Positions 1 to 30,384 of a stretch of DNA of 30,384 nucleotides are shown piece after piece. The position numbers were made by a program, and so were the translations under genes. Source of the DNA: a virus; IMG/VR virus record IMGVR_UViG_3300007609_000066, positions 1-30,384 of that record, one strand, 5' to 3'. How positions within the stretch are numbered: position 1 is the stretch's first letter; the number at the start of each line of letters is the position of its first letter. Below the pieces are notes generated by a model. That model did not search any database. It was not told the origin of the DNA and saw only the letters and a list, made by a program, of their open reading frames with translations.

Positions 1-1
1 C

Positions 2-1683: not shown

Positions 1684-1686
1684 GCT

Positions 1687-2514: not shown

Positions 2515-2526
2515 TAGGGGCTACAC

Positions 2527-4506: not shown

Positions 4507-4511
4507 TCCGC

Positions 4512-17937: not shown

Positions 17938-17954
17938 GTTAGTGGTGCACTAAC
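17938..17954. promoter_or_regulatory. Inverted repeat site 1, GTTAGTG-N3-CACTAAC
   Basis: Perfect 7-bp arms GTTAGTG / CACTAAC around GTG. It lies 29 bp upstream of the SNF2 helicase ATG on the - strand. Its left arm, read on the - strand, supplies the TAG stop of the preceding small basic gene (CGT TAG). A DNA operator is the likeliest reading; an RNA hairpin in the leader is possible. Confidence 0.75.
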
Positions 17955-18234
17955 GTTTCCTCGGGCTACTTAACGCGCCACCCGCGGCTCGGTTCTTATT
18001 GCGGCTCTGGACGGTCACGCCGTTCTTGTTCGAGCCACCACGTGATAAGGGCTTCTTGTGCGCGACGTCTTTGCCCTCACGCTTGTCAGCCTTACCGTTT
18101 TTGTTGGCATCCTTACCGGTCTTATCCATCTTGCGTCGTGCACGCTGTCGCTCCATGCGGTCCTCGTGCTCGCCACGTTTCTTCTGCTGCTCGTACTCTT
18201 TCTTGTACGGGCGAGGTTTGTTTTTGTAAGGCAT
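17950..18234 (-). CDS. Small, very basic protein with degenerate HNH-like motif
   Basis: 94 residues from the ATG at 18234, which overlaps the stop of the nuclease gene upstream by one base (TGATG). The N-terminal 60 residues are mainly Lys, Arg, Glu and Gln. The C-terminal part reads DVAHKKPLSRGGSNKNG, which resembles the first beta-turn and helix of HNH nucleases (H-x-x-PLS-x-GGSN). The zinc cysteines and the last catalytic His/Asn are not evident. It is therefore either a minimal HNH-derived DNA-binding protein or an unrelated basic protein. Its stop codon lies within inverted repeat site 1. Confidence 0.6.
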   Translation of the reverse strand: MPYKNKPRPYKKEYEQQKKRGEHEDRMERQRARRKMDKTGKDANKNGKADKREGKDVAHKKPLSRGGSNKNGVTVQSRNKNRAAGGALSSPRKR

Positions 18235-18917
18235 CAGTTTGCTCCGTTGTGTGGGCACTCCGTTACAGGACAATGGCGTCTGCACAGGCCGCTAGGCTTC
18301 GGGTTCCACACCCCTGTCTCGAAGGCTTTCTCCATTGTACCATACTTGCCCATCCATTTCCCCCACAGATCAGGAGTGATCTCTTCGAGGTAGGTGTCAC
18401 GCACTATGTCGTTACACACCACAAACAGCAGGCCAGCGCGCACCTTCTTGATGTCAGGGAAGTGCTTGAACACAGTAAGCGCCATCAACTCTAGCTGTCC
18501 CTTGTCTGCGTAGCGTGCGGACTTGCCTGTCTTGTAGTCTATGACCCAAGCGGTTTCGGCATTGTGGTCGAGGATAAGCAAGTCAGCAATGCCGCGGAAC
18601 CAAACGTCTTTTGCGTAGAAGCTGCACGGTTCGAGGTCTGCGGTCAGCCCCATCTTACGCTCGACTAACTTGTCACCGCGCTTGCTGTTGAGCGAGTCCA
18701 AAACAGGCTTGGCGAAGTCGAACGCAGGGGGTAGTGGCTTGCCCTCACCGATGTAATCCTCGGCTGCTTTGTGGAAGGCGCTACCGTAGCGCACTGCCTC
18801 GGTCTCCACAAACGGGTGCTCTTTTAGCACAGTTACATGATAAAACTGCTTGGGGCACGTATCGAAGTTCTTCATCTTGCTGAAGGACCACGGCGCTGCG
18901 GCTACGGGTTTGCTCAT
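18234..18917 (-). CDS. Cas4/RecB-like PD-(D/E)XK exonuclease with Fe-S type cysteines
   Basis: 227 residues. Nuclease motifs: G45-S-A-F-H49 (GxAxH type), E86, G109-I-A-D112, D127-Y-K129 and Q141 before a hydrophobic helix. One Cys near the N-terminus (C21, in NFDTCPKQFYH) and three near the end (C212, C216, C221) match the layout of the [4Fe-4S] clasp of Cas4 and AddB nucleases. The enzyme probably resects DNA ends in phage recombination or replication. No CRISPR array or cas1 is present, so a link to spacer acquisition is not supported. It overlaps the PolA gene by 4 nt (ATGA). Confidence 0.88.
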   Translation of the reverse strand: MSKPVAAAPWSFSKMKNFDTCPKQFYHVTVLKEHPFVETEAVRYGSAFHKAAEDYIGEGKPLPPAFDFAKPVLDSLNSKRGDKLVERKMGLTADLEPCSFYAKDVWFRGIADLLILDHNAETAWVIDYKTGKSARYADKGQLELMALTVFKHFPDIKKVRAGLLFVVCNDIVRDTYLEEITPDLWGKWMGKYGTMEKAFETGVWNPKPSGLCRRHCPVTECPHNGAN

Positions 18918-20743
18918 TCACATTCTCCATATGATTTGGCGGTGCCTGCTTCGCAGTCGACAGGTAGGCCAGTGGCCCAGTCCGGTACCCAACGCATCCA
19001 TTTCTCTACACATTCCTGTGCAGCGGGGACTTCGGCGTCAGGGACACAGCACACAATCGAGTCGTGAACGGTTAGCACCACGCGGTATTCCTTAGCAATT
19101 CTTAGCATCTGCTCGCCAATGATGCAACGGGCGATAGCTTGGCACACGTTCTCTACTACTTTCCCACCGTATATCTTCTTCTCACCTGCGCGGACCTTGT
19201 AGTAGTATTGCGGTCCCTTCTCTTCCTCGCGGGCAAAGAGGTCGTGGTAGAACATGGGTAGCCCCGACGGCAGCATGACAGCCTTCTTCACGGGGTCGAC
19301 AGTCAGTACCCCGGCGAGACCGAAGTCGAGCCTGTCACCCTGCGCCATGTAGCGGAGCATGTTCTGTGCGTTGCGCCATAGCTGACTGATCTTCCAGTTG
19401 GTGTCACGGTAGATGTTAATAACCCTGCGAGCCTCGTCCAACTCCATGTCGAACCCAAACGTCTTTAGCTGTGCTTGGAACTTGAGCGCACCCATGCCGT
19501 AGCCTGCACCAAGAATAGTAGTCTTACCCACAAAGCGTTGGTCCTTGGTCACCTCGTCTACAGGCACGCCGTAGATACTAGACGCCATCTTCTTATAGAC
19601 GTCCTCTCTGTTAGTGAACGCACTAACAAGGTCACTCTGCTCGGCTAGCCACGCCAGTACACGGGCTTCAATCTGTGCGGAGTCAGCCTCGATCACTGTG
19701 TGCCCTTCGGGGGCGATGATCGCCTTCTTGAGCGCCTTCCCGTTCGGTCCTCGGCTCGGTAGGTTTTGCAGGTTGATCTTGTCGTCCCCGCCCCATCGGC
19801 CAGTGTGCGCCGCGTAGTAGCGGACCGGTACGGGTAGCAGCCCACGTTTGGATATATCTATAAACCTCTGAGTACGTGTTTCCTCAAGCGTGGATTTTGT
19901 CCCAAGCCGTGCAGCAACAAGCGCCTGTACCCTGTCGTCTTCATGCTCTAGCAGCGCCTTAAACTCTTCGTCGTTCTTGGCGAACGCGTACGTCTCCTTG
20001 CCTGTGGTGGGGCTGATCTTGGTCGGCGGAGTTACGCCTAAACCAATCAGCATGTCCGCAAACTTGGGGTTCGACATCAGGTCCTTCTTGTCGGTGATCC
20101 CTGCATCTACCATCAGCTGGTCCTTGCGGTCCTTGACGTTTTCGAGGTGCATCTCCAGCAGCCCAAGGTCCAAGTCCAGCGTTGGCTCCGTGAACATACG
20201 CAGGGTCAGGTCAATCAGCTTGAGTTCTTTACGTGGAAACTTCTTAGCCATGATGCTGAACAGTGTGTACGTCAGGTTCACGTCGTTGACGCAGTAGTCA
20301 CCATACAGGGACAGGTCATAGTCAGAGAAATCTAATCGCCGTTTCCCCAGCGCGCGGACCACTTCCGTTCCCTTAGCTCCAACACCGTATCGTTCAGCGA
20401 CTTTCTTGAGACTTGCGCTAGTCTCAACCCCATGAAGAGCACGGGCCATGTGCATAGTGTCAGCAAGAGCGCGAGGGTGGATACCAAAACGCCAAGACAA
20501 GATAGCACCGTCAAACATAGTATTGTGGGCGAGTACCATACTGTTAGCCCAGTCAAATGTATCGAGGTACTGAGCGATCTGTTCTTGTGTTCCACTGGCC
20601 CACTCCGTCTCACCGTTGTTTACTTTCACTGCGACGCCAATCACTTCGAAGCGGGGGTCACGTATATACGCTTCTGTTGTCATCTTAGACAGTGAGTAGT
20701 CCTTGGCGTAGTAGGTCTCAAAGTCGACTGTTATCAGGTCCAT
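18914..20743 (-). CDS. polA: Family A DNA polymerase with 3'-5' exonuclease, Leu762 type
   Basis: 609 residues. Exonuclease motif I is DFETYY (D7, E9), and YCVNDVNLTYTLF fits Exo III. Polymerase motif A is EADSAQIEAR (D354), motif B is R403-x3-K407-x3-L411-G with GYGMG following, and motif C is VHDS (H560, D561). The residue equivalent to E. coli Phe762 / T7 Tyr526 is Leu411, a variant known from marine virioplankton polymerases and tied to altered dideoxynucleotide discrimination and fidelity. There is no 5'-nuclease domain. It should be the main phage replicase. The coding sequence carries one perfect GTTAGTG..CACTAAC repeat at 19610-19627. Confidence 0.97.
   Translation of the reverse strand: MDLITVDFETYYAKDYSLSKMTTEAYIRDPRFEVIGVAVKVNNGETEWASGTQEQIAQYLDTFDWANSMVLAHNTMFDGAILSWRFGIHPRALADTMHMARALHGVETSASLKKVAERYGVGAKGTEVVRALGKRRLDFSDYDLSLYGDYCVNDVNLTYTLFSIMAKKFPRKELKLIDLTLRMFTEPTLDLDLGLLEMHLENVKDRKDQLMVDAGITDKKDLMSNPKFADMLIGLGVTPPTKISPTTGKETYAFAKNDEEFKALLEHEDDRVQALVAARLGTKSTLEETRTQRFIDISKRGLLPVPVRYYAAHTGRWGGDDKINLQNLPSRGPNGKALKKAIIAPEGHTVIEADSAQIEARVLAWLAEQSDLVSAFTNREDVYKKMASSIYGVPVDEVTKDQRFVGKTTILGAGYGMGALKFQAQLKTFGFDMELDEARRVINIYRDTNWKISQLWRNAQNMLRYMAQGDRLDFGLAGVLTVDPVKKAVMLPSGLPMFYHDLFAREEEKGPQYYYKVRAGEKKIYGGKVVENVCQAIARCIIGEQMLRIAKEYRVVLTVHDSIVCCVPDAEVPAAQECVEKWMRWVPDWATGLPVDCEAGTAKSYGECE
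19610..19627. repeat. Inverted repeat site 2 inside polA, GTTAGTG-N4-CACTAAC
   Basis: Perfect 7-bp arms with the 4-bp spacer AACG, inside the polymerase frame, where it encodes L-V-S-A-F-T-N. No start codon is nearby. It may be an internal operator or roadblock site, or a chance product of the codons used. Confidence 0.55.
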
Positions 20744-20963
20744 TGTTGTTCTCTCTCATGTATCTCTGGATTGTATGCAGGCTCTTCTTGGCCTGTTGGT
20801 CATTTTGCGTTGACGCGTTATTAGCCACACACGCTACGCGGCGCCCTCGGTGTACGAGGAAGTAGTGATCCTTTTTCTTCACCACTCCCCATGTACTCGG
20901 CAGGCCCCTAAGAACTTTTCGCAGCAGTGGATGAACTTGTTTCGGTAGGTCACGCATGGTCAT
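20718..20963 (-). CDS. Small basic protein, loosely HicA-like
   Basis: 81 residues. The start overlaps the dCMP deaminase stop by 4 nt (ATGA), and the end overlaps polA by 26 nt. The sequence has LRKVLRGLP, then WGVVKKKDHYFLVHRGRRVACV, then a helix KKSLHTIQRYMRE. A beta-hairpin with a single His followed by a C-terminal helix recalls the small double-stranded-RNA-binding fold of HicA toxins and related phage proteins. No HicB partner is adjacent. A toxin role is not supported, and an RNA- or DNA-binding accessory protein is the safer guess. Confidence 0.6.
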   Translation of the reverse strand: MTMRDLPKQVHPLLRKVLRGLPSTWGVVKKKDHYFLVHRGRRVACVANNASTQNDQQAKKSLHTIQRYMRENNNGPDNSRL

Positions 20964-21406
20964 ACCTGCGTTACCCGCACAGCAGCTTCGCGAAATTGTT
21001 GCTTCGTTAGGTATAGGTCATCTGCCCATCGGGCGAGGAACGCGTCGTCAGGTTCGGGCCACACTACATGTTTGATGCCCGCTTGAACTATCTGAGCAGC
21101 ACACTGAGCGCAGCAGGGGTGCGTCACCACAATCGTCGCCCCGTCGAGTGGCGCTGTTGCAAACAAGATCGCATTCTTCTCGGCATGTAGCACCATCTTA
21201 TACTTTATCTCGCGGTTATTAAGGCGTTCTGGTGTGTCGTATACCCCCCGTGCAAGCCCGTTGTACCCTGTAGATATTACGCGTCGTTTCTTGTCGAATA
21301 TAACCGCGCCGACCTGCGTGCTCGGGTCTTTACTTAACTTGGCTATATGCTCGGCGAGTTCTAGCGCCCATTTTTGTAGGTGTGGTGTGTCTATCGGCCC
21401 ATTCAT
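20960..21406 (-). CDS. Deoxycytidylate (dCMP) deaminase
   Basis: 148 residues, RBS AAAGGGGCA. Zinc-dependent deaminase motifs: H74-A-E76 (zinc His and proton-shuttling Glu) and C99-A-Q-C102 (zinc Cys pair), plus STQVGAVI and GYNG near the N-terminus that form the nucleotide pocket. The enzyme converts dCMP to dUMP, raising the dTTP supply for replication. The usual PPC before the Cys pair is P97-C98-C99, so a Cys replaces the second Pro. It is followed by coupled genes leading into polA. Confidence 0.93.
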   Translation of the reverse strand: MNGPIDTPHLQKWALELAEHIAKLSKDPSTQVGAVIFDKKRRVISTGYNGLARGVYDTPERLNNREIKYKMVLHAEKNAILFATAPLDGATIVVTHPCCAQCAAQIVQAGIKHVVWPEPDDAFLARWADDLYLTKQQFREAAVRVTQV

Positions 21407-21418
21407 TGTCTTGCCCCT

Positions 21419-21910
21419 TTAGTCATTTTGTACTTCCTTCGGCCTGTCGTCTGTGCCGACGTTGCGAGCCTCGTAAGACACAAGGAAAGCTATGCAGCAG
21501 GCTGCGTGAGATAGGTGTGAGTACCCTGTCTCGGGGTCTTTTTCCTCACCACGCCACCACGCCCACATATGGCGCATCAGCGCGCCGAAGGGGCGAGACC
21601 ACTTCATACCCAACTCCCAGTTACGGTCGGCGTATTTCTTAGCGCCGAAGGTCAGGACACGGGCAACTTCTTCGAGTAGTTCGGGAGGTAACAACTCATA
21701 CCGCAGCTTATCACTGTCAAATTTTTGACCCTCCGTGATAGGCTCCCTCCAGTTCGGCGATGAAATCCGATCCATGCAGGTTTGTGCGTAGTCTACGGGC
21801 ACGTCGCAGTTCAGTGCTATAGTCTCGGCGGTTGCGGTGGCGCGGTGCTTCAGCAGGTAACGCCACACACGCTCTTCTGTTGCCTCCACAGGCTTAAAAA
21901 TCTGGTTCAT
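21419..21910 (-). CDS. MazG-like dATP/dGTP diphosphohydrolase with N-terminal winged-helix-like region
   Basis: 163 residues, AAGGGATAC upstream of the ATG, 17-nt overlap with the preceding gene. Residues 1-55 look like a small winged helix (TEERVWRYLLKHR, then TAETIALNCDVP). Residues 63-150 carry the phage pyrophosphohydrolase pattern: RYELLPPELLEEVARVLTFG, KKYADRNWE, ALMRHMWAWWRGEE, and HLSHAACCIAFL. This is the family called dGTP_diPhyd_N or DUF5664. It likely hydrolyses dGTP/dATP to monophosphates and may shape the nucleotide pool. In Z-genome phages a related enzyme feeds PurZ, but no PurZ is in this window. Confidence 0.8.
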   Translation of the reverse strand: MNQIFKPVEATEERVWRYLLKHRATATAETIALNCDVPVDYAQTCMDRISSPNWREPITEGQKFDSDKLRYELLPPELLEEVARVLTFGAKKYADRNWELGMKWSRPFGALMRHMWAWWRGEEKDPETGYSHLSHAACCIAFLVSYEARNVGTDDRPKEVQND

Positions 21911-22079
21911 GGAGTATCCCTTGCTCTTGCAGTTTCTTGTAGTACCGGAGTTCGCGCGTGAGGGTCACAAGCCTTGGGTCACCCGGACCTTCTTCCCAGA
22001 TGATGTCATCGTATTCTCTCTCTAATTTCTTTACTTTCCCTGACACGTTAATCAGTCTTGGGTCACTGTCGTAGTCCAT
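21894..22079 (-). CDS. Small hypothetical protein, charged coiled coil
   Basis: 61 residues from the ATG at 22079, chosen because AGGAAGA lies about 5 nt before it; the frame extends to 22109. The protein has two similar halves: DSDPRLINVSGKVKKLEREY and GDPRLVTLTRELRYYKKL. This repeat of DPRL followed by a helix suggests an internal duplication and a helical hairpin. No family recognised. Confidence 0.6.
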   Translation of the reverse strand: MDYDSDPRLINVSGKVKKLEREYDDIIWEEGPGDPRLVTLTRELRYYKKLQEQGILHEPDF

Positions 22080-22206
22080 TGATCTTCCTTCTTGCGTACC
22101 AAATTCCAAACTTCCAAAGCAGCCTGTACGGCGACCACTTCGGCGTCATAGAGAGCGCATGAGTGCATTGCCATTGTAGTGACAGGTATTCTTCCCGTGT
22201 CTTCAT
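22052..22206 (-). pseudogene. Small gene split between two frames
   Basis: An ATG at 22206 overlaps the upstream stop (ATGA) and has GGAAGG about 10 nt before it. In that frame the first codons read MKTREEYLSLQWQCTHAL, then the frame turns to AGG/AGA-rich, unlikely sequence and stops after 47 codons. The -1 frame takes over at the same point and reads LYDAEVVAVQAALEVWNLV to a stop at 22052. Deleting one CT from CTCTCT at about 22148-22153 would join both into a sensible protein of about 52 residues. Either a real frameshift mutation, programmed slippage, or a sequencing/assembly error. If two genes exist, the second could start at ATG 22174. Confidence 0.5.
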
Positions 22207-22391
22207 ATGTCGTACCCTTCCTTCCGACGGTTCTCGACAAACTTGCGTAGGTCATCCGCGGCGTGCCAGTAGCGTTGTTGTGCGGACGGGGAGGCGTCCT
22301 TCTTGGCATGGGCTTCCATCCAGAAATCTACCTGCTGTTTGAGGAACCGCAGCTCTGCCTGTTGAGCGGGGGGCAACTCTGTCTTTCCCAC
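22203..22391 (-). CDS. Small helical hypothetical protein (GTG start)
   Basis: 62 residues starting at GTG 22391, with AGGG 6 nt upstream and 6 nt after the VRR-NUC stop. Content is helical and charged: LPPAQQAELRFLKQQVDFW, then ADDLRKFVENRRKEGYDI. No domain recognised. Its stop overlaps the next start by 4 nt, which indicates coupling with the frame-disrupted gene below. Confidence 0.6.
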   Translation of the reverse strand: MGKTELPPAQQAELRFLKQQVDFWMEAHAKKDASPSAQQRYWHAADDLRKFVENRRKEGYDI

Positions 22392-22397
22392 GATACC

Positions 22398-22676
22398 CTA
22401 GACCTCCCGTGCATCTTCGATGTTGTCCGCGTTGATAACAAGCGATACCCCTCCCGCTTCGGCGATCTGCTTTAAGTTCTTCTCCTGCAACGGCGTCGGC
22501 TTGTTCTTGCCTACCTTGCACTCAATCCCAAAGAACCTGCCTTGGTGGCAGCCCACGATGTCGGGCACTCCGCTCTGACCATACCCACCTGTCACAGGGT
22601 AGAAGTAGTAAGCACCCATCTCTTTGAGTATCGCCACGACTTTCTTCTTCACCTTAGCTTCCGGTGTCATTGCCAT
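22398..22676 (-). CDS. VRR-NUC family nuclease
   Basis: 92 residues, GAAAGGACA upstream of the ATG. The compact PD-(D/E)XK core of the VRR-NUC family is visible: GQSGVPDIVG (P38, D39), IECKVG (E52-x-K54) and PTPLQEKN (Q64), followed by a helix and AGGVSLVINA. Stand-alone phage VRR-NUC proteins are thought to act on branched or structured DNA during recombination or packaging; the target here is unknown. It lies in a run of small accessory genes after the nucleotide-metabolism block. Confidence 0.9.
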   Translation of the reverse strand: MAMTPEAKVKKKVVAILKEMGAYYFYPVTGGYGQSGVPDIVGCHQGRFFGIECKVGKNKPTPLQEKNLKQIAEAGGVSLVINADNIEDAREV

Positions 22677-22688
22677 CGTCTTGTCCTT

Positions 22689-22892
22689 TCACTGGTTGTC
22701 GTCAAAGAAAGCGTCTTCTTCACACCAGTAGTGTTCATTGTCCCAGTGCGTAAACAATTCACGGTATGCACGACGGAGTCCACTTAAGTCATACCACCAA
22801 TCATTTACTTTCATGTATGCCCGCCAAGCGGTTCGCTTGCTCTTGGTGTTCATGTAGATGCGAGAGTTCCTAGTCCCCGTGTAACACAGCAT
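22689..22892 (-). CDS. Small aromatic-rich hypothetical protein
   Basis: 67 residues, ATG at 22892 preceded by GAAAGGACAGGACG, almost the same leader as the VRR-NUC gene. The start lies 23 nt inside the upstream gene. The sequence is rich in Trp and Tyr (VNDWWYDLSG, THWDNEHYW) and ends acidic. No membrane segment or known motif. A virion or host-interaction peptide is possible, but there is no direct evidence. Confidence 0.55.
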   Translation of the reverse strand: MLCYTGTRNSRIYMNTKSKRTAWRAYMKVNDWWYDLSGLRRAYRELFTHWDNEHYWCEEDAFFDDNQ

Positions 22893-23181
22893 CGTCCTGT
22901 CCTTTCAGTTTGGCGATGGTTTTTTGCGCGAGAACCACTGGATCACGGTCAGGCCATGTACCATATTCCATGAAGTTGCAGCAGATTTGCAGCACGAAAA
23001 CCGCCTCATCCAGCTTGGCTTCCAGTTCCTCTATGCGATCTACAAGCGGTACACTGGCATCCATCTTTTTGAGGATGTGGTGCATTCGTTCACGAGTCAC
23101 GCCCTTCTCCTTGGCCAGCTTGTGCGGGTCTTCGCCTTTCTTCCAGCGGCGATACGCCTGCTCTCTTGTCATCTCACTCAT
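22870..23181 (-). CDS. Small HTH protein with C-terminal coiled helix
   Basis: 103 residues from the ATG at 23181, with GAGGAGA 6 nt upstream; a longer frame to 23202 is less likely. Residues 3-40 look like a simple HTH: TREQAYRRWKKGEDPHKLAKEKGV followed by TRERMHHILKK. Then a long helix IEELEAKLDEAVFVLQICC and a short end. A DNA-binding or adaptor protein is likely. The start overlaps the upstream gene by 8 nt. Confidence 0.62.
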   Translation of the reverse strand: MSEMTREQAYRRWKKGEDPHKLAKEKGVTRERMHHILKKMDASVPLVDRIEELEAKLDEAVFVLQICCNFMEYGTWPDRDPVVLAQKTIAKLKGQDDAVLHGD

Positions 23182-23359
23182 CTTTTTCTCCTCTGTTTGC
23201 ACGTCCTCTGATCTCGTTCACTACGTTTTTGTTGCCCTCGGCCATGCGGATGATCGTCTCAAGCTGATCCCACGTAACCCAAAGTCTTGGCAGGGGTACA
23301 AAGCCCGCCTCCCGAAGAGCCTGCGCGCCCTTGCTCTTGAGTTCTCTGCCGTTGCTCAA
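23174..23359 (-). CDS. Small conserved-type phage protein (LWVT motif), TTG start proposed
   Basis: 61 residues if it starts at TTG 23359, which overlaps the stop of the upstream membrane peptide (TTGA) and follows GGGGGCGGG. The frame is open to 23404, but the upstream part overlaps that peptide's codons. Core: LREAGFVPLPRLWVTWDQLETI, then MAEGNKNVVNEIR. I have seen short phage proteins with this L-W-V-T..Q-x-E pattern without known function. It could be a small helical regulator; this is not supported further. Confidence 0.55.
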   Translation of the reverse strand: MSNGRELKSKGAQALREAGFVPLPRLWVTWDQLETIIRMAEGNKNVVNEIRGRANRGEKDE

Positions 23360-23496
23360 TTTTCCCGCCCCCACATGTACACGAGGATTGCACCCAGCAA
23401 CCAAGGCACCGGGTCAGGCGAAACTATAGCGGTGATGGCCAAGCCAATGCTGGCAAGCGCGCACAGCCCGCGGAAGAAGTCGTCTGAGTCTTTCAT
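23356..23496 (-). CDS. 46-residue membrane protein
   Basis: A short frame with ATG at 23496 and RBS GAAAGGACA about 6 nt upstream. After a charged N-terminus MKDSDDFFRG come two hydrophobic segments: LCALASIGLAITAIV and PWLLGAILVYMWG, separated by SPDPV, ending GREN. Two short transmembrane helices with both ends charged is a holin-like or small inner-membrane layout. No lysin is visible nearby, so a lysis role is only a possibility. The stop overlaps the next gene's TTG start. Confidence 0.65.
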   Translation of the reverse strand: MKDSDDFFRGLCALASIGLAITAIVSPDPVPWLLGAILVYMWGREN

Positions 23497-23507
23497 GGGT
23501 TGTCCTT

Positions 23508-23585
23508 TCAGAAGATGTTACGGAAAACGAATAGGCCGACTGCTACAACCGCTACCACCTCGATAAACAGGACGGCTTCAACCAT
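23508..23585 (-). CDS. 25-residue single-pass membrane peptide
   Basis: ATG at 23585 preceded by AAGGAGGTGAGTG, an almost complete Shine-Dalgarno match and the strongest in this region. The peptide starts MVEAVLFIEVVAVV and ends GLFVFRNIF, so it is essentially one transmembrane helix. A perfect RBS, correct spacing and a hydrophobic product make a real gene likely despite its size. The next gene's RBS overlaps its stop. Confidence 0.65.
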   Translation of the reverse strand: MVEAVLFIEVVAVVAVGLFVFRNIF

Positions 23586-23617
23586 CACTCACCTCCTTCA
23601 ATCTGGTCGATGTTGCA

Positions 23618-23890
23618 CTAGTCATCTTTGTTGCGCTCCTTTCGCCACTGTTGAAAGTCATTCCACTCCCCGCGATTGCGAATGTCAGCTTTCATTTGCC
23701 GCACCGTTTTGAATGGGACGCGCCAGATCATTACCGGCAACGCGATAACGATGAAAAAAGGCCATAGCACTGCCGCTGTTATTCTGTCTCGGAGCGTTGT
23801 GCTTGCGTCAGCACAGAGTCCCGCAAAGATGACAACGGTCATAGACCACCAGACGACAGCCACAACGGTCAAAATAATTTCAAAGTTCAT
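23618..23890 (-). CDS. Small two-helix membrane protein
   Basis: 90 residues, AGAGGA upstream of ATG 23890. Hydrophobic segments at about residues 4-25 (IILTVVAVVWWSMTVVIFAG) and 38-55 (ITAAVLWPFFIVIALPVMIW), joined by a polar loop with one Cys and charged residues. A basic C-terminal tail (FKTVRQMKADIRNRGEW) should face the cytoplasm. Together with the 25- and 46-residue peptides below it forms a cluster of three membrane proteins. Holin, superinfection exclusion or another envelope role are all open. Confidence 0.7.
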   Translation of the reverse strand: MNFEIILTVVAVVWWSMTVVIFAGLCADASTTLRDRITAAVLWPFFIVIALPVMIWRVPFKTVRQMKADIRNRGEWNDFQQWRKERNKDD

Positions 23891-23999
23891 GTTTATATCC
23901 TCTGCTACCCGCGCCGTTATTGGTCATCGGTCCTGTCTTTTCAGTTCTGCGGCAGCTATTGCTTGATGCATGGTCCGCGAGTATCTTCTCTAGGCTCAT
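23880..23999 (-). CDS. Possible 39-residue coupled peptide
   Basis: ATG at 23999 overlaps the upstream stop (ATGA), and the frame runs to a TGA at 23880, just inside the next gene. It begins MSLEKILADHASSNS and ends in a Gly/Asn/Ser-rich part. A second short frame in the same stretch (ATG near 23971, MHQAIAAAELKRQDR) looks more protein-like in its last residues. The segment may hold a single degraded gene. Only the coupling supports it. Confidence 0.3.
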   Translation of the reverse strand: MSLEKILADHASSNSCRRTEKTGPMTNNGAGSRGYKHEL

Positions 24000-24199
24000 G
24001 CTTCTTCTCCCCAGTCCTTTTTGTCGCCATATTTTATGGCTTGCTCATACCCCGCGTAATACTTTTGCACCTGAGCGGGCGTCATGTCTGCTTTGCTGAT
24101 CCGGTGGCCGTTGTCCTTGTAATGCGGATCTTCTGGCCTGCCGTAGTAGGCGTCTGCGTGGCCCCGGTCGAAGGGACTGCCGTGGCGTTGGGTGGTCAT
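23996..24199 (-). CDS. Small conserved-type phage protein (FDRGHADAYYGRP)
   Basis: 67 residues; start overlaps the upstream stop by 4 nt. Motifs: SPFDRGHADAYYGRPEDPHY and a helix QVQKYYAGYEQAIKYGDKK. Many phages and some bacteria encode proteins of this GSPFDRG-x-ADxYYxRPxxPH type with no established function. The compact aromatic motif suggests a nucleic-acid or protein-binding surface. It is located between an HTH protein and membrane peptides. Confidence 0.7.
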   Translation of the reverse strand: MTTQRHGSPFDRGHADAYYGRPEDPHYKDNGHRISKADMTPAQVQKYYAGYEQAIKYGDKKDWGEEA

Positions 24200-24525
24200 G
24201 GGTTCTCCTCATAGTAAGCGTCCACCATGCACGAAACGGCGAACTCAGCCACCGTGCCGCCTTCCGGTATCTGGCCCCGTAGCCAGCGTTGGAGTTCCTC
24301 GGGCTGCTGGCGGACCAAACCTCTGATCGACCCTGTATAGACGCCCCTCAAAATGTCAGCTTTACGGCGGGCCAACAGCCCCCGCGCTCGTGCCGTTGCC
24401 ACAACTTTATTGGCTTGGGAAATAGACAACCCGATCACTCTTGCTGCCTCACGCGTGGTGTAACCCTGTTCTAGGTAGGGTCGCAGCTGCGCGGCCCGTT
24501 CTTCTAATGTACAATACTTCTGCAC
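24196..24525 (-). CDS. HTH protein, GTG start, downstream of inverted repeat site 3
   Basis: 109 residues from GTG 24525 with GAGGGA 6 nt upstream. The frame extends to 24645, but that would run through the palindrome and hairpin. Residues 6-45 form an HTH of the sigma/LuxR-tail type: LEERAAQLRPYLEQGYTTREAARVIGLSISQANKVVATARARG. The rest is helical (QPEELQRWLRGQIPEGGT) and ends AYYEENP. Likely a transcription regulator. Because its own leader contains a GTTAGTG site, autoregulation is a possibility worth testing. Confidence 0.68.
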   Translation of the reverse strand: MQKYCTLEERAAQLRPYLEQGYTTREAARVIGLSISQANKVVATARARGLLARRKADILRGVYTGSIRGLVRQQPEELQRWLRGQIPEGGTVAEFAVSCMVDAYYEENP

Positions 24526-24562
24526 AGTAAGTCCCTCGCGGTAACTGGTTTCAATTGTGGGT

Positions 24563-24576
24563 GGGGCCGAAGCCCC
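24563..24576 (-). other. UUCG tetraloop hairpin in leader of HTH gene
   Basis: On the - strand: GGGGC-TTCG-GCCCC, a 5-bp GC stem with the very stable UUCG loop, 1 nt after inverted repeat site 3 and about 38 nt before the GTG start. There is no T-tract after it, so it is not a normal terminator. It could stabilise the mRNA 5' end or define a processed end. Confidence 0.6.
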
Positions 24577-24577
24577 T

Positions 24578-24594
24578 GTTAGTGACGCACTAAC
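24578..24594. promoter_or_regulatory. Inverted repeat site 3, GTTAGTG-N3-CACTAAC
   Basis: Perfect 7-bp arms around ACG. It lies about 53 bp upstream of the GTG start of the HTH gene. Read on the - strand, GTTAG supplies the TAG stop of the 126-aa gene (TTT TGT TAG), exactly as at site 1. Confidence 0.75.
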
Positions 24595-24970
24595 AAAACA
24601 CCCAGTAGGTATCGCTGTTGATGCGCCTACCCACACCATCAACAAGTTCGGTCGGTGGCTTACTGCTCATCATTGAGAGCACAGCCAACTTCTCCTGCAT
24701 CCAGTCTGGTAGCTTGTGTGTCCCAGCATAGGTGCCATCCACTATCGCGTCAACACTTTCTAAGCCAATACATGACACCTTAACGTATCCTGTGTCAGCC
24801 ACTATGTGAACACGGTATATGTTGTCATCGGGTGGTAGATGTTGTGGGTCATCCACCCAATAGGCACTTCGTTTAGTACACCTGCGCCACCCGTTAGCTT
24901 CGATCAAGTCTGTGTATTTGCGGAACTCGTCTGGCGTTGTGTCTTGCCACGTTTCTTCACCGAGCCACAT
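24590..24970 (-). CDS. Hypothetical protein sharing a C-terminal motif with its upstream neighbour
   Basis: 126 residues from ATG 24970, with GGAGA about 9 nt upstream, overlapping the previous gene by 14 nt; other in-frame starts (24979, 24997) are possible. The C-terminus reads LPDWMQEKLAVLSMMSS, then VDGVGRRINSDTYWVF. The neighbour (24957-25817) ends with LPDELAGKMAVLSMCAV, VPDVGVRATENVFYV. The two proteins thus share a C-terminal domain, a likely duplication. Before it lie a Trp/Cys-rich part and DDPQHLPPDDNIYRVHIVAD. Function unknown. Confidence 0.65.
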   Translation of the reverse strand: MWLGEETWQDTTPDEFRKYTDLIEANGWRRCTKRSAYWVDDPQHLPPDDNIYRVHIVADTGYVKVSCIGLESVDAIVDGTYAGTHKLPDWMQEKLAVLSMMSSKPPTELVDGVGRRINSDTYWVFC

Positions 24971-25817
24971 AGAATACATTCTCCGTCGCACGCACACCTA
25001 CATCAGGGACGTATTGTTCGACTGCACACATGGACAGCACAGCCATCTTGCCTGCCAACTCGTCTGGCAGTGTTGTGTCGTCGTACCGTGTTACCTCGTC
25101 AGATATTTTAGGGCCCCAACCTTTGAGTTTGTTAGCCTCTACAACCTCGAATACCTGCTTACCCATACGCTCAGACGCGATCACACAGTGCATATCTAGT
25201 TCCTGTTTCTTGGCCGCGTGCTCGTCAACAGCAGCAAAGTATGCGCGTAGGTCAGTCTCGACAGACTTGTCCATGAACGTATGCCCTGTATCTATTAGCG
25301 TCCGCAGTTCGTTGGCGACAGCCGGTAACTCCCGCCTGTACCCTATACCAAACAGCTTGTGGTATAGCTTGCCCTGCTCTGTGCGTGTCCCCTGCTCTAC
25401 CTCTCGCGCTGCCTCTTTGGGCACGCGGCTCAGGCCTTTGGTCAACTCGACAGGCGAGTAACTACGCAGAAACTTCTTAGCGTTACGCAGTGCCACCTTG
25501 CGGTTGGTAGACATCTTCATGCGCATCAAGTCCCCGCCGCTATACTTAGCGTTCTCGATGAACCGTGAGTATACAACGTAAGAATCAACGTTCTCGCTGG
25601 CAGAGTAACGGAAGTCGCCGAAGCCTACCCAGCCCATCGGCAGCACGTCATGTGGCATGTATACCCACGAAGTGCGCCAGTCTCTCGGTGTGGTGCGCAC
25701 GCCTCGTATCGTATGCTCAAGGTCATAACAGAAGTCCAACAGGCCCACGGGCTGGCGCCCGTTGTACTCATTGTCGGCGTGGTTCTTAATCAGTTCTGAT
25801 ACATATGTTATATTCAT
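24957..25817 (-). CDS. Hypothetical protein of the MoxR-VWA cassette, 286 aa
   Basis: ATG 25817 overlaps the upstream stop (ATGA). An in-frame extension to 26150 is a shadow of that gene and is rejected. The protein begins MNITYVSELIKNHADNEYNG, has a hydrophobic-aromatic region TSWVYMPHDVLPMGWVGFGD around residues 44-63, then a basic helical region with RNAKKFLRSYSP and LTKGLSRVPKEAAREVEQG. Then come KLYHKLFGIGYRRELPA and the C-terminal LPD..AVLSM motif shared with the next gene. No catalytic motif is recognised. Order and coupling suggest it works with the 343-aa protein upstream. Confidence 0.7.
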   Translation of the reverse strand: MNITYVSELIKNHADNEYNGRQPVGLLDFCYDLEHTIRGVRTTPRDWRTSWVYMPHDVLPMGWVGFGDFRYSASENVDSYVVYSRFIENAKYSGGDLMRMKMSTNRKVALRNAKKFLRSYSPVELTKGLSRVPKEAAREVEQGTRTEQGKLYHKLFGIGYRRELPAVANELRTLIDTGHTFMDKSVETDLRAYFAAVDEHAAKKQELDMHCVIASERMGKQVFEVVEANKLKGWGPKISDEVTRYDDTTLPDELAGKMAVLSMCAVEQYVPDVGVRATENVFYVAR

Positions 25818-26845
25818 TGCTCTTCTCCGTGTACTGTTTTCACAAAGCCCATGGTGTTGTTGATCCATGTGTTTGCACGTTGCTTGATTAGTCGTATGTC
25901 GTCCTCGTCCGTAGCCATCTGGAATTCGATGTCTCGCAGCATATACACAGCCATGGGTAGGCGCAGCGGGTGCGTCTCGAACGCGATAATCTGACGTCTT
26001 ATCGTGAGGTCCATGTGGGGTAGCGGGTTGCCCAAGTAACGGCTGGTGTCGGTGCCGTTCTCTTCCATCCACTCTTTCACAACCTTTTTCTGCTCCTGAA
26101 CGTACCCATAGTCGCTGATAGGCAGCAGTGGGGCCATGGTGAACGCCCACTCTTTGAACGCGTCGATGTGCTGCTTGTATTTCGCCTTGGCCGTTTTGTT
26201 GATGACATTGCGAGGTGGCGTAGGCACAGGCTTACCCCCAGTTACGAGTTGCCAACCGTCGTCTGTATTTGTAAATGTCAGTGCTGAGTTGTCGTCGTGC
26301 AGCATCACCCAGCTTCCCAGACGCTTCTGCCAGTAGTGCGTCGACGTGTTGTCCATGATCGCCCTGTAAACAGGTTCTGGTGCGGTGCGCACCTTGGCGA
26401 GGTAGTACTCGCTCTGTCCTGCTTGGATGAAGTGTTTGCCGTTGCGGTTGCGGAACCACATACCCTTGGGGCTGTGTCGATATAGGAACGCATAGCGTCT
26501 GTTGTGGTACCCCTGACCCCAGCCATTGCGCAGTGTAACTTCTTCTGTGCCATCACGCTTCTTGCGCCACACGATAGGCGCAAACTGCTCCATGTGTTTG
26601 AGTGTCGGTGTGAACTTATCCGCGCCGTAATACCACGAGCCGAAGTGCGGGTCACCAAAGTGGTAGCCATCCGACAGTGCGTAGCAGTTGGGGCTGATCT
26701 TGACGATGCGTTCCCACTTGCGGTTGCGGTCCCCGATGGGGCGTATGTCTTTGCCTTTGTTCTGCTCGCCGCGCAGTGGTGTGATGTTGTTGTAGTGTGC
26801 TTCGACTTCTTTGAAGCAGGTGAATGATGTGTATGTAAGTGTCAT
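25814..26845 (-). CDS. Hypothetical protein of the MoxR-VWA cassette, 343 aa
   Basis: ATG 26845 with AGGAGAGAAG upstream, 19 nt after inverted repeat site 4. The N-terminal half is rich in aromatic, His and Gly residues: YALSDGYHFGDPHFGSWYYG and NGWGQGYHNRRYAFLYRH. This suggests beta structure and perhaps ligand binding. The middle contains LGSWVMLHDDNSALTF. The C-terminal third is helical and charged. I do not recognise the family. Placement directly after the VWA gene and before the 286-aa gene makes it a candidate substrate or partner of the MoxR/VWA pair. Confidence 0.7.
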   Translation of the reverse strand: MTLTYTSFTCFKEVEAHYNNITPLRGEQNKGKDIRPIGDRNRKWERIVKISPNCYALSDGYHFGDPHFGSWYYGADKFTPTLKHMEQFAPIVWRKKRDGTEEVTLRNGWGQGYHNRRYAFLYRHSPKGMWFRNRNGKHFIQAGQSEYYLAKVRTAPEPVYRAIMDNTSTHYWQKRLGSWVMLHDDNSALTFTNTDDGWQLVTGGKPVPTPPRNVINKTAKAKYKQHIDAFKEWAFTMAPLLPISDYGYVQEQKKVVKEWMEENGTDTSRYLGNPLPHMDLTIRRQIIAFETHPLRLPMAVYMLRDIEFQMATDEDDIRLIKQRANTWINNTMGFVKTVHGEEQ

Positions 26846-26863
26846 GTTCTTCTCTCCTAGTTT

Positions 26864-26880
26864 GTTAGTGTGCCACTAAC
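26864..26880. promoter_or_regulatory. Inverted repeat site 4, GTTAGTG-N3-CACTAAC
   Basis: Perfect 7-bp arms around TGC. It fills the 37-nt gap between the VWA gene (stop at 26883) and the 343-aa gene (ATG 26845). It lies directly upstream of the RBS of the latter, so a binding protein here could control that gene and those downstream. Confidence 0.75.
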
Positions 26881-26882
26881 GA

Positions 26883-28124
26883 TTACATGTCTCGTCCTTT
26901 GACGTGCACGGTGGTGCCGCAGTCTGGTGATGCGTTCTTGTTGTCCATGATTGTCCAGAGCACAGGCATGTTCCACTGACCCCAGCCACCATACAGATAG
27001 CCGTCGGTCAGCACGATGCAGGCTTGCGCCCTGATCTGTTCCTGTGTGATGTAGTCGGTGACGCAGCGCACGTCCGTGCCCCCACCACCCTTGGGCTTGG
27101 TAGAGTTAACGATGTCGTCTTGTTCGTTAACCTCATACCGCTCGTCACGACAGACAGCGGTGTCCCAGTACAGCAGGCGGATAGCTTCGGGGTGAACAGT
27201 CTCGGCGATGGATTTTATTTCGCTAAGAAATACACTCAACTCCCGCTGACCAATAGAGCCTGACGTATCAACAGCCACGATCAACTCGCCCACGCTCTCG
27301 CTGATGCCGCTCGGCATATACACATTCGCACCGATGTAGCGACGGTTCGGTCTGCGCCACGTTGAATAGTCAGTGCCAGCACATGTTGTCTGCACAAACT
27401 CACGCAGCACCTCGCGCCAGTCTACCTGTGGGGCAAGCAATTCGGCGAGGTCACGGTCGCCACCTGATCCAGTCTTACCTGCAACCAACGCACCCTGACG
27501 TATGGCCTCGTCGATGTCACGGGCAAGGTCACGCTGCTCGTCCGCAGTCATACCCTCGGCTTCGCCCCAACCATGCTCGTCGAAACCTTGTGGGCCACCT
27601 TCGCCTTGTCCTTGGCCTTGGCCTTGGCCTTGTCCTTGGCCTTGGCCTTGTCCTTGGCCTTGTTGCTTCAGGTCGTTGAACACCTGAGCACTGTCCCAGC
27701 CACGATACTTCTCGTCGAAGCAACCACACTTCAGCTTGCCATCCATCGTAGCGAACTGATCCTGCGCGTTGTCGTCGGCGATCTTGACGTTGATCACAAA
27801 GTCACAGGCCATGTTCGCAAGTTGGGGGTCTTGCTTGTACAGGTGCTGCCACGTTGTGAGGTGGCGATAAAGTTTGTGATACACCTCGTGCAAGATCAGG
27901 AAGCGTAGCTGCTTGTCGTTGAGGTCCGCGATGAAGTCCGCACCATACACCTCGTCCTTACCATTAGTGTATGCAGTGGGGCATTTGGCAGGGTCTGTCT
28001 CGACCCTGCGCTCACCAATCATCAGGACACCTGCGAGTGCGATGTATTTCGGGTTCGCCATGATGTCGACGACAGCCTTCGATACACGCTGCTCTGGTGT
28101 GAGTTGTTTACCTATGTTCAGCAT
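26883..28124 (-). CDS. VWA-domain protein with N-terminal HExxH metallopeptidase-like domain
   Basis: 413 residues from ATG 28124, with GGAGG 7 nt upstream; the longer frame to 28160 overlaps the previous gene. The N-terminal domain has LHEVYHKLYRH (H79, E80, H83), the zinc motif of DUF2201-type putative metallopeptidases. A Gln-Gly dipeptide linker (about 155-175) follows. The C-terminal VWA-like domain has the MIDAS residues D286-T-S288-G-S290, T350 and D374. Proteins of this build usually pair with MoxR AAA+ ATPases, in which the VWA partner recognises or modifies the target. The MoxR gene is four genes upstream on the same strand. The target here is unknown. Confidence 0.9.
   Translation of the reverse strand: MLNIGKQLTPEQRVSKAVVDIMANPKYIALAGVLMIGERRVETDPAKCPTAYTNGKDEVYGADFIADLNDKQLRFLILHEVYHKLYRHLTTWQHLYKQDPQLANMACDFVINVKIADDNAQDQFATMDGKLKCGCFDEKYRGWDSAQVFNDLKQQGQGQGQGQGQGQGQGQGQGEGGPQGFDEHGWGEAEGMTADEQRDLARDIDEAIRQGALVAGKTGSGGDRDLAELLAPQVDWREVLREFVQTTCAGTDYSTWRRPNRRYIGANVYMPSGISESVGELIVAVDTSGSIGQRELSVFLSEIKSIAETVHPEAIRLLYWDTAVCRDERYEVNEQDDIVNSTKPKGGGGTDVRCVTDYITQEQIRAQACIVLTDGYLYGGWGQWNMPVLWTIMDNKNASPDCGTTVHVKGRDM
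27604..27665 (-). repeat. Hexamer repeat coding for the Gln-Gly linker
   Basis: About ten copies of the hexamer CCTTGG or CCTTGT (on the - strand CAAGGC/ACAAGG), which read as (Q-G)n in the VWA gene. It is an in-frame microsatellite likely to vary in copy number and to give a flexible linker between the HExxH and VWA domains. Confidence 0.9.
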
Positions 28125-28126
28125 TG

Positions 28127-28447
28127 TTATCCTCCGATACCTAATAGCCGCTTCCACCATGCGGGTTTTGGTTTGGGTTGCGTAGTCAGTTCGGGCGTGG
28201 GCGGTGTTACTACTACGTCCAACGAAATTTCGTCGGCGTTAGTCATCTCGTCCTGACGTGTTAGTGCCGCACTAACATTCTGTTGTTGCTGCTGCTTGCG
28301 CATCTTGGGTAGCCCCATATGATGTGCGCGTTGTTGGCACGCTGAGGGTGACCGTTCGAGTATCCGTGCGATCTCCCTGTAAGTCATACCTGCGATATAC
28401 ATCGTGCGTAGTGTGCCGAGGTCTGCGTCTGTCCATTTCTTAGCCAT
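28127..28447 (-). CDS. Myb/GcrA-like HTH DNA-binding protein
   Basis: 106 residues from ATG 28447, with GAGGAGAAAACA upstream; the frame to 28552 is longer but lacks a site. Residues 3-45 read KKWTDADLGTLRTMYIAGMT, then YREIARILERSPSACQQRAH and HMGLPK. A W-T-x-x-D/E start with a three-helix HTH and H-x-x-GLP end resembles Myb/SANT and GcrA-type domains. The C-terminal part has a QQQQQ run, a Thr/Pro-rich linker and an end KPAWWKRLLGIGG that may touch the membrane. It is a candidate regulator of the cassette. Inverted repeat site 5 lies inside its frame. Confidence 0.72.
   Translation of the reverse strand: MAKKWTDADLGTLRTMYIAGMTYREIARILERSPSACQQRAHHMGLPKMRKQQQQQNVSAALTRQDEMTNADEISLDVVVTPPTPELTTQPKPKPAWWKRLLGIGG
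28260..28276. repeat. Inverted repeat site 5 inside the Myb-like gene
   Basis: Perfect 7-bp arms around CCG, in-frame coding for V-S-A-A-L-T. About 14 nt further along the - strand is an ATG (28246, MTNADEISL). The site could therefore govern an internal start, or be only an internal binding site. Confidence 0.6.
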
Positions 28448-28610
28448 TTGTTTTCTCCTCACTGACTTTGATGACTTGAGCCACGTCTGTGTCCAGTTCG
28501 TTTTTGAAATCGGCTTTTGCCCATTCCCCTGCTTGGTGTGAGTTCTCAGCATCTATGCGGAACACCCGCGATGCGATGCCTTCCACTGTGACGTAATAAG
28601 TTTTAGTCAT
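28440..28610 (-). CDS. Small hypothetical beta-rich protein (56 aa)
   Basis: ATG 28610 with GGGAGGTAAC upstream and 4-nt overlap with the upstream stop (ATGA). An in-frame extension to 28754 is a shadow. The sequence reads TKTYYVTVEGIASRVFRIDA, then NSHQAGEWAKADFKNELD and a charged end. The pattern beta-hairpin, helix, strand resembles small phage regulators, but no family is named. Its last codons overlap the start of the Myb-like gene. Confidence 0.65.
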   Translation of the reverse strand: MTKTYYVTVEGIASRVFRIDAENSHQAGEWAKADFKNELDTDVAQVIKVSEEKTNG

Positions 28611-28816
28611 GTTACCTCCCATTCTTTCCAACCCATCTGTCCTTCTACTGCGTACTCGGTCACGACTGGTGAAGAGCTGTCGATCTCGGAGCACTCGTCT
28701 TCCATTTCGCCATCTTCGACGAACTCCACCACTTCTTCGATGGTGTCGCCCCACACCTCGTATTCATATGTCACGCGCACTGTGGCCCGCACTTTGAACA
28801 TCTGTGTCATACTCAC
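28607..28816 (-). CDS. Small acidic hypothetical protein (69 aa)
   Basis: Either GTG 28816, overlapping the MoxR stop (GTGA), or ATG 28810 may be the start; no strong RBS decides. Residues 6-28 alternate in a strand pattern (FKVRATVRVTYEYEVWGDT). A very acidic stretch follows (EEVVEFVEDGEMEDECSEID), then a strand and KEWEVT. The shape and position resemble the 56-aa protein that follows, which also begins with a beta-hairpin. A small adaptor for MoxR is possible but unproven. Confidence 0.62.
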   Translation of the reverse strand: MSMTQMFKVRATVRVTYEYEVWGDTIEEVVEFVEDGEMEDECSEIDSSSPVVTEYAVEGQMGWKEWEVT

Positions 28817-29910
28817 ACCCGATCAGCCGCAAACAGGTAGTTGTTGTCCATCGCCCACTGCGTGAACTTCCTGTTGGTCATGACCATGCTCTGCTTGGAA
28901 TACTTCGGCGCACGCACACCGTTGGCGAACATACCCTGCGCTTCTTTGTCGAGGCGTGGCATGTAGTCCATCCATGCGTCGAGCCAGTCTTTCTCCAGTG
29001 ATGCGAGCGTCCGATACACCACCATGCAAACGGCTGCGGCAGAGTCAGGCACCTTGGCGTTCTTCGGGTCATCCTTGATTGATTGCAGTGACGGCAGCTG
29101 GTCGGCCAGCTTGACAAACGCCATCAGGTCCATCGCACCACGGTCGCCGATTGTGCCCATCAGTGCAGCGGTCAGTGTCTGATCGTCAAACTTGTCACGC
29201 TGCTTGAGCCAGTCGGATGCCGCTTCGAGTGAGCGAGGTGTGACAAACGCCGCACGCTGTGCTTTGGGGTGGTAGATGTAGGGGTTCTCGTCAGGGTCAC
29301 GCACGTCCTCGAATGACAGGAACAGTTGTGGATTGTCCTTACACCAACCAAGCAGGGTGTGATCCACCCCGTTGTTGATACCCCACTCGATCCACTCCAT
29401 GTTGTTCGGCTTGCGTGCAGTCACGACAGTGATCCGGTTGCGTGCATGTGGTGGCAACAGGTCACCGACACCTTCGGCCCCGAGGTTAGTCGTCGCAAAG
29501 ATTATGCTGTCAGGGTGTAGTGTGTAGCTACCGATCTTGCGCTCCAACATGAGACGTAACAGTGCGTTCTTCACGGCGGGGTTGGCTTTGCCATACTCGT
29601 CGATCATCAGCACGATGGGTGCGTTGATGTGTGCGCCCAACTCCTCGTTGGTTGAGTATGTCACGAACGGCAGTGAGTCCGCCCCCGTGGTGTTGATGTT
29701 AGGCAACGTGATGTCGCCGAGGTCCTTGGTTGTGCAGTCGAAGTAGCACGCCGTGTGGTTGGGTAGGTCGCGGGTCAATGCCCCCAACAAACTACTTTTG
29801 CCTGTGCCCATGTGACCTTGGACCAGTGTGGTGCGCTCGTGCCCACCTGCTTTGATGAGGTCCGTGATCTGGTCGAGGTTCAGTGCGTACATTGCTTGTG
29901 CGTTGCTCAT
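28813..29910 (-). CDS. MoxR-family AAA+ ATPase
   Basis: 365 residues from ATG 29910, with AAGGAGG 8 nt upstream; the frame to 29952 (GTG) is an extension that overlaps the leader peptide. Walker A G32-HMGTGK38-S, Walker B VLMIDEYGKAN (D104, E105), sensor 1 near N142 (FATTNLGAEG) and a likely Arg finger at R157/R159 (PPHARNRI). The compact N-terminal ATPase core and longer helical C-terminus fit MoxR/CobS-like ATPases. These act as chaperones that insert metals or remodel protein complexes together with VWA partners. The VWA/HExxH protein downstream is the obvious partner. Confidence 0.92.
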   Translation of the reverse strand: MSNAQAMYALNLDQITDLIKAGGHERTTLVQGHMGTGKSSLLGALTRDLPNHTACYFDCTTKDLGDITLPNINTTGADSLPFVTYSTNEELGAHINAPIVLMIDEYGKANPAVKNALLRLMLERKIGSYTLHPDSIIFATTNLGAEGVGDLLPPHARNRITVVTARKPNNMEWIEWGINNGVDHTLLGWCKDNPQLFLSFEDVRDPDENPYIYHPKAQRAAFVTPRSLEAASDWLKQRDKFDDQTLTAALMGTIGDRGAMDLMAFVKLADQLPSLQSIKDDPKNAKVPDSAAAVCMVVYRTLASLEKDWLDAWMDYMPRLDKEAQGMFANGVRAPKYSKQSMVMTNRKFTQWAMDNNYLFAADRV

Positions 29911-29954
29911 TTGTTTGGCCTCCTTAGCCGTTGTTTCATGTGGCGTAGCCACAT
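29907..29954 (-). CDS. 15-residue leader peptide of the MoxR gene
   Basis: ATG 29954 with AAGGAGAAC 6 nt upstream; the product is MWLRHMKQRLRRPNK and its TGA overlaps the MoxR start (ATGA). It is strongly basic and too short for a folded protein. A leader with its own good RBS and coupled stop suggests translational control of MoxR. Confidence 0.55.
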   Translation of the reverse strand: MWLRHMKQRLRRPNK

Positions 29955-29957
29955 GAA
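29935..29957 (-). promoter_or_regulatory. 10-bp hairpin over the leader-peptide start
   Basis: Perfect inverted repeat with arms TTCATGTGGC and GCCACATGAA and a 3-nt loop TAC. In the - strand mRNA the leader's ATG and its second in-frame ATG lie in opposite arms. Folding would hide the leader start from ribosomes, and opening it would allow coupled MoxR translation. Confidence 0.75.
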
Positions 29958-29978
29958 GTTCTCCTTGGTTTGTCGTTT

Positions 29979-29996
29979 GTTAGTGGCGGCACTAAC
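29979..29996. promoter_or_regulatory. Inverted repeat site 6, GTTAGTG-N4-CACTAAC
   Basis: Perfect 7-bp arms around GCGG, in the gap between the Gly-rich gene (stop 30010) and the MoxR leader peptide (ATG 29954), 24 bp upstream of that ATG. Together with the hairpin downstream it makes a compact control region for the MoxR-VWA cassette. Confidence 0.75.
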
Positions 29997-30285: not shown

Positions 30286-30384
30286 GTTGCTTGGCCTATG
30301 GCAGCCCCGTCGATTGTGGCGCTGGCGACTTTGTAGCCGTTGCCGCCTTCGCCGTTGCCGCTGCCGCTGCCGCCGCCGTCGCCG
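30282..30384 (-). CDS. C-terminal end of a second Gly-rich protein, 5' partial
   Basis: A frame open at the right edge reads 33 codons to the TGA at 30284-30282. It begins with a Gly-rich GDGGGSGSGNGEGGNG part and ends in an ordinary segment YKVASATIDGAAIGQAT. The stop overlaps the start of the next Gly-rich gene. Identity of the whole protein cannot be judged from this piece. Confidence 0.55.
   Translation of the reverse strand, partial: GDGGGSGSGNGEGGNGYKVASATIDGAAIGQAT

Follow-up and report, generated by a model that had tools for sequence, protein, structure and literature searches.

The viral fragment IMGVR_UViG_3300007609_000066 (an IMG/VR record of 30,384 bases, analysed over its full length and hereafter called the window) carries six perfect copies of the palindrome GTTAGTG-N3/4-CACTAAC, which we propose are operators on double-stranded DNA for a two-fold symmetric, phage-encoded protein. 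The candidate reader of these sites is the protein encoded by the first gene of the early block; it is helical and belongs to a family that has not been described. Made first, it would bind its own promoter as well as one site ahead of each cluster of early genes, blocking initiation or halting elongation and thereby limiting or timing early expression. Sister phages have swapped this first gene, and the sites throughout the early block change along with it. We put the explanation as a whole, an autoregulated orphan phage protein acting negatively through an operator array, at a probability of roughly 0.5.

Structural genes on the plus strand of the window (1-11288) converge with replication genes on the minus strand (11369 onward). 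Genes were called with a simple open reading frame (ORF) script, and the contigs compared throughout are fragments. The six palindromes that a first-pass annotation of the sequence had listed were recovered exactly (Table 1), with 7-bp arms and spacers of 3 nt at four sites and 4 nt at palindromes 2 and 6; its statement that the plus-strand structural module has none was borne out, as was the placement of four sites between genes, ahead of the SNF2 helicase, a helix-turn-helix (HTH) ORF with a GTG start near 24525, the 343-aa gene and MoxR. The other two are intragenic (in DNA polymerase A and a GcrA-like ORF), and at palindromes 1 and 3 the stop codon of the upstream gene is the TAG within GTTAG. 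No copy arose in 100 shuffles of the window, one-mismatch copies are absent from it, and matches with two or three mismatches occur at chance level only.

The same palindrome recurs in related phages. Exact matching against viral contigs found it in at least 120 stretches. Among the matches listed, about one third of the stretches have two or more copies, with a maximum of 13 in a record of 42.7 kb; many listed contigs with a single copy are probably due to chance, and a reversed pattern used as a control gave no match in 38 records. In tens of related phage contigs the palindrome is multi-copy, mostly intergenic and gene-proximal: 119 of 167 sites in multi-copy contigs are intergenic, versus 12.5% of random positions, the usual location being after the stop codon of the preceding gene and 10-40 nt before the next start, with only two convergent intergenic cases. 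In G013 (62.3 kb), G008 (66.8 kb) and G017 the sites are restricted to the early/replication block; the structural block has none. Of 289 genomes sampled from one bacterial class, 288 lack the palindrome, and a wider bacterial scan returned scattered, mostly single matches. Together with the different but equally uniform palindromes of sister phages described below, this distribution supports the annotation's suggestion of a candidate regulon specific to the phage. No paper describing these palindromes was found in the PMC literature, where the text term GTTAGTG led to unrelated sequence only. Separately, several copies of GTTAGTG-N4-CACTAAC are clustered in the chromosomes of four Bacteroidota genomes (L175, L145, L151, L178), perhaps as a mobile repeat unrelated to the phage system.

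One intragenic site reveals constraint at the DNA level. All 23 DNA polymerase A homologues that encode the peptide VSAFTN at the site retain the exact 14 palindrome bases, at protein identities as low as 73%, and 57 others encode different residues there. Since the palindrome is kept despite this protein divergence, selection at the polymerase site is on the DNA and not on the peptide, and a chance origin from coding sequence is rejected.

Relatives that lack GTTAGTG have other perfect palindromes upstream of SNF2, MoxR, the VWA gene and the 343-aa gene, uniform within each phage. A de novo palindrome search in 83 loci fetched by MoxR homology yielded at least 11 classes: GTTAGTG-N3/4, TTTAGGGA-N2, TTTAGGG-N4, TTCGGGCA-N2, TTTACGGA-N2, TTTACGCA-N2, GTACGTCA-N1, GTTATGG-N4/5, GTTAGTCC-N2, GTTAGGGA-N3, GGTAGTG-N3 and GTAGTGA-N1. 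A repeated palindrome with 7-bp arms was present in 78 of 82 such loci (up to 13 copies) and in none of the 82 once they were shuffled; KPP25 (L126), a named relative, lacks a palindrome array. Of 445 deduplicated sites, 319 (72%) are intergenic, versus 12.6% of random positions, and the median distance from site to next start is 24 nt. A cultured relative, the Rhizobium phage RHph_TM3_14A (DNA polymerase 36% identical), has 15 copies of GTTACC-N6-GGTAAC, of which one lies within the gene for its DNA polymerase; the reversed pattern does not occur in this phage. Two contigs are mosaic. L414 combines ten GTTAGTG-type sites and a GTTAGTG-class first gene with two sites of the TTTACGGAATTCCGTAAA class at DUF3150, one of which is separated from a GTTAGTG site by only 5 bp. 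In L373, three TTCGGGCA-type sites and two TTTAGGGA-type sites are divided by a point between DUF3150 and MoxR. These two-class contigs look like intermediate states of class switching, although they may instead be assembly chimeras.

The palindrome class tracks the first gene of the early block, and on this ground we propose its product, probably correctly, as the reader of all sites. In relatives this gene, which adjoins the packaging genes, lies just left of the DUF3150-MoxR-VWA operon with a site in its own leader, and encodes a protein of 160-240 aa that differs greatly between palindrome classes; a cognate site lies within 260 nt upstream of 34 of 40 first genes. The window's own copy would lie past the contig end, judging from relatives such as G012 (DNA polymerase 92%). 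When same-motif and different-motif pairs among 44 loci were compared, pairwise first-gene identity separated them with an area under the curve of 0.984, versus 0.81-0.92 for seven other genes, a figure that is descriptive only because the pairs are not independent. At MoxR identities of 90-99.9%, first-gene identity was 34-100% for pairs sharing a motif and 7-25% for pairs with different motifs, without overlap. The clearest pair is L397 and L398, whose DNA is 95.6% identical over 7.1 kb on one side of the first gene and 89% identical over 3.7 kb on the other; MoxR and VWA are 98% identical, the first gene is replaced (23%), and TTTACGGAATTCCGTAAA stands in place of the GTTAGTG sites at matching positions with the flanks kept.

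Profile comparison indicates that first genes of different classes are homologous (GTTAGTG versus the TTCGGGCA set, 98.7%, E 3.5e-16; GTTAGTG versus the TTTAGGGA set, 89.8%, E 1.8e-6). The protein has no convincing Pfam or PHROG family, no sequence match in the PDB and none in the phage collection. AlphaFold2 models of two first-gene proteins are all-helical, with predicted local distance difference test scores of 92.6 and 85.0.

Other candidate readers fared less well. The annotation had pointed to the HTH proteins of the window, but probably none of them serves: two are missing from all nine other GTTAGTG phages, the GcrA-like one is found in three of the nine, and phages with different palindromes share the MerR-like one at 100% identity. 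L325 and L331 also differ in their palindromes, and because their DNA polymerase, PD-DEXK, SNF2, Gam-like, MerR-like and phrog_4590 proteins are 95-100% identical, these conserved early proteins were dropped as readers.

How a bound protein would act is suggested by where the sites lie. About 90 nt before the first gene is a block conserved across classes, TATCTATTG-N17-(AT)GGCATAA, which its conservation suggests is a promoter. In L399 and L405 a 17-bp palindrome fills exactly the 17-nt spacer of this block; other loci have their palindrome ahead of the block or within the leader, and there is no set position for it with respect to promoters and starts. A repressor or roadblock would be the simplest reading, since the factor would act from varied positions and between genes that leave no room for a promoter, and the two-class mosaics fit it in that a repressor would tolerate them. 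We rate repression or roadblock as the net effect at even odds or a shade better.

The palindromes could instead act positively, as middle promoters or as activator sites where the first-gene product brings in or redirects RNA polymerase, so that each early operon gets mRNAs with short leaders. Sites 10-40 nt before starts and just 5' of the Shine-Dalgarno sequence would suit such a role, as would the A that follows the 3' arm in 90% of GTTAGTG sites and the ATAAYRTAGAGAGG-like sequence after the palindrome at seven of eight L357 sites; however, this flank is missing at the eighth L357 site, some sites lie within genes, and positions range from upstream of the promoter-like block through its spacer to downstream of it, with no fixed spacing. 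Flank logos of GTTAGTG sites have neither a -10/-35 nor any strongly conserved base besides the A, and a simple promoter scan found nothing useful. A weak structural likeness of first-gene residues 51-114 to stretches of sigma factors (Z ~4) is at the noise level for helical models, and we do not count it as evidence. On balance we consider positive action unlikely.

The annotation had left the choice between a protein-bound operator and a conserved hairpin undecided, and the operator half of that alternative is the one favoured. Every class can be drawn as an RNA stem-loop (a 7-bp stem with a 3-5 nt loop; 3-4 nt for GTTAGTG) situated at the head of a cistron, between stop codon and Shine-Dalgarno sequence, where a phage protein might control processing or translation; and one palindrome of record G014 (L256:16162) is embedded in a terminator-like hairpin. 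Yet in six classes the ends of the would-be loop are themselves complementary (TTCGGGCA, 83/84; TTTACGGA, 17/17; GTACGTCA, 11/11; GTTAGGGA, 9/9; GTTATGG, 15/15; GTTAGTCC, 20/24; pooled, 155 of 160 sites), the GTTAGTG and GGTAGTG classes being without such central symmetry. Complementarity at these positions would be useless to a hairpin and favours binding of duplex DNA by a dyad-symmetric protein. Variant GTTAGTG sites, moreover, mostly have a GTTAGGG half-site, which breaks the pairing and is not a G-U wobble, again favouring an operator, and sites upstream of or inside the promoter-like spacer would not be transcribed from that promoter. RNA stem-loops thus seem improbable, and the palindromes are very probably double-stranded DNA operators of a phage-encoded protein. 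Intrinsic terminators are rejected, there being no T run (the right flank is A-rich) and no enrichment at convergent gene ends. As an observation apart, two G014 palindromes (L256:16162 and L256:13022) lie inside longer, GC-extended stems followed by T runs, and look as if operator and intrinsic terminator had been fused.

A regulator of the host might read the sites, motif and first gene changing jointly as both adapt to the host, which would account for the joint change of a motif and a host-takeover gene. The near-absence of the motif from the sampled bacterial class and its scattered occurrence elsewhere speak against this, as does the 95.6% identity that L397 and L398 keep in the sequenced structural part beside the swap, and we regard a host reader as more improbable still than an RNA element. 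Least probable, by a little, is a role in organising or marking phage DNA (parS-like, or in packaging): numerous exact palindromes and a protein that varies with them recall the form of ParB-parS pairs, but placement follows early gene starts without clustering, and comparison with Pfam and PHROG found no ParB-like domain in the first gene.

Several points weigh against an operator array read by the first-gene product. The GTTAGTG spacer is asymmetric and the flanking A follows the gene-proximal arm, a directionality that a purely palindromic operator does not need. Fold searches with the two first-gene models returned nothing above noise and no clear DNA-binding fold. The first early gene of RHph_TM3_14A has no detectable homology to the first-gene family, despite the phage's 15 sites. 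Finally, L397 and L398 cover only part of the genome, and because parts of both are unsequenced a further exchanged gene is possible.

Parts of this arrangement have parallels in known phages. In lambdoid phages, repressor gene and palindromic operators differ together between heteroimmune sisters; in lambda, however, the few operators lie in one exchangeable segment, whereas here some ten operators over ~15 kb change while the neighbouring DNA stays the same. The hairpin promoters of the N4 virion RNA polymerase share with our sites a 3-nt loop, arms of 5-7 bp and a position just upstream of early genes, and MoxR has weak N4-like homologues. In N4, loop bases are conserved and stems vary; here the stems are constant and the loops vary, and the structural block beside the swap is nearly identical across motifs. 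T7-family promoters, too, are short, numerous and nearly identical, and stand directly ahead of genes or in some cases within them, but they lack palindromic symmetry. Judged by the size and place of the genes in G013, G008 and G017, where not every ORF was profile-scanned, no T7-like RNA polymerase was recognised. Promoters of T7 or N4 type, which look-alike bases and 3-nt loops had brought to mind, are rejected or weakened by the stem and loop conservation and the nearly identical structural DNA across motifs.

The closest likeness is to the stoperators of Cluster A mycobacteriophages (L5, Bxb1, Trixie, TipsytheTRex), for which repressor or roadblock action has been proposed (PMC6550527, PMC9283540). 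Stoperators are asymmetric, 13 bp long and bound by a monomeric protein whose HTH can be recognised. Both systems repeat one short motif many times in a genome, mainly in narrow gaps between genes; both have an autoregulatory site, here a putative one, and in both, sister phages differ in motif and have diverged repressors, again putative here. In contrast to stoperators, the sites here are perfect palindromes of 16-19 bp confined to the early block, with the flanking A as their only directional feature; the candidate regulator family has no known domain, and there is no evidence of lysogeny. The palindrome system may resemble stoperators in action, probably without being related to them.

Table 1. 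Palindromes of the window and the genes next to them
Feature	Positions	Strand	Sequence	Context or family match
Palindrome 1	17938..17954		GTTAGTG-GTG-CACTAAC	28 nt 5' of SNF2 helicase start; includes the TAG stop of the upstream ORF
Palindrome 2	19610..19627		GTTAGTG-AACG-CACTAAC	within DNA polymerase A, codons V-S-A-F-T-N
Palindrome 3	24578..24594		GTTAGTG-ACG-CACTAAC	includes stop of 127-aa ORF; then GGGGCTTCGGCCCC hairpin and GAAACCAGTTA
Palindrome 4	26864..26880		GTTAGTG-TGC-CACTAAC	18 nt 5' of 343-aa gene
Palindrome 5	28260..28276		GTTAGTG-CCG-CACTAAC	within GcrA-like ORF, ~100 nt upstream of VWA/DUF2201 gene
Palindrome 6	29979..29996		GTTAGTG-GCGG-CACTAAC	in MoxR leader
SNF2-type helicase	16374..17909	-		PF00176; 3' of palindrome 1
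DNA polymerase A	18914..20743	-		PF00476; contains palindrome 2
343-aa conserved early protein	25814..26845	-		3' of palindrome 4
VWA/metallopeptidase (DUF2201)	26883..28124	-		Pfam PF13203/PF09967; 3' of palindrome 5
MoxR-type AAA ATPase	28813..29952 (start 29910 or 29952)	-		PHROG 1297, E 3.6e-46; 3' of palindrome 6

Several positions in Table 1 are shared with relatives: that of palindrome 1 is occupied in many of them, that of palindrome 5 in G013 and G017, and the layout around palindrome 3 recurs with other palindromes in L328, L338 and L357. Some leaders contain further elements. At 24525-24577, after the palindrome that follows the 127-aa gene, a GC-rich hairpin precedes a GAAACCAGTT- or GATACCAGTT-like sequence; this second conserved leader element is also present at L098:2960, L058:6540, L328:6071 and L357:8779. 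In the SNF2 leader (the window, L005, L057, L070 and others) a second hairpin, GCGCC...GGCGTTGCGAYGGAG, stands between palindrome and start, present in some phages and cleanly missing in others. Between first gene and DUF3150 (L398:8543-8770, L397:8480-8720 and similar places elsewhere), a noncoding stretch conserved across classes has many copies of TAATGTTCG/TAATGTTCC and looks like replication-origin iterons. The window itself ends in a low-complexity ORF with GDG/GYG/GSGRG repeats (30010-30384), which may have ended its assembly, and its structural module includes a 2258-aa virion-type protein (4512-11288) with an LPD39 domain and a DarB-like C-terminal part.

It has long been asked in the study of regulatory evolution how a regulator can change in step with every one of its dispersed binding sites. 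This phage family offers natural replicates of such a change: it has at least 11 paired specificities, near-isogenic pairs whose sequenced parts differ in their code alone, and mosaics that have two codes at once. Somewhat short of even odds, we suggest that the first gene founds a new regulator family without a known fold, whose repeated specificity switches rewrite all operators together by way of mosaics and have left at least 11 distinct codes in one phage family that is otherwise alike. The cultured phage RHph_TM3_14A, with 15 palindromes of its own class, makes the site-array half of this proposal testable, and the orphan first-gene family would supply new DNA-binding specificities.

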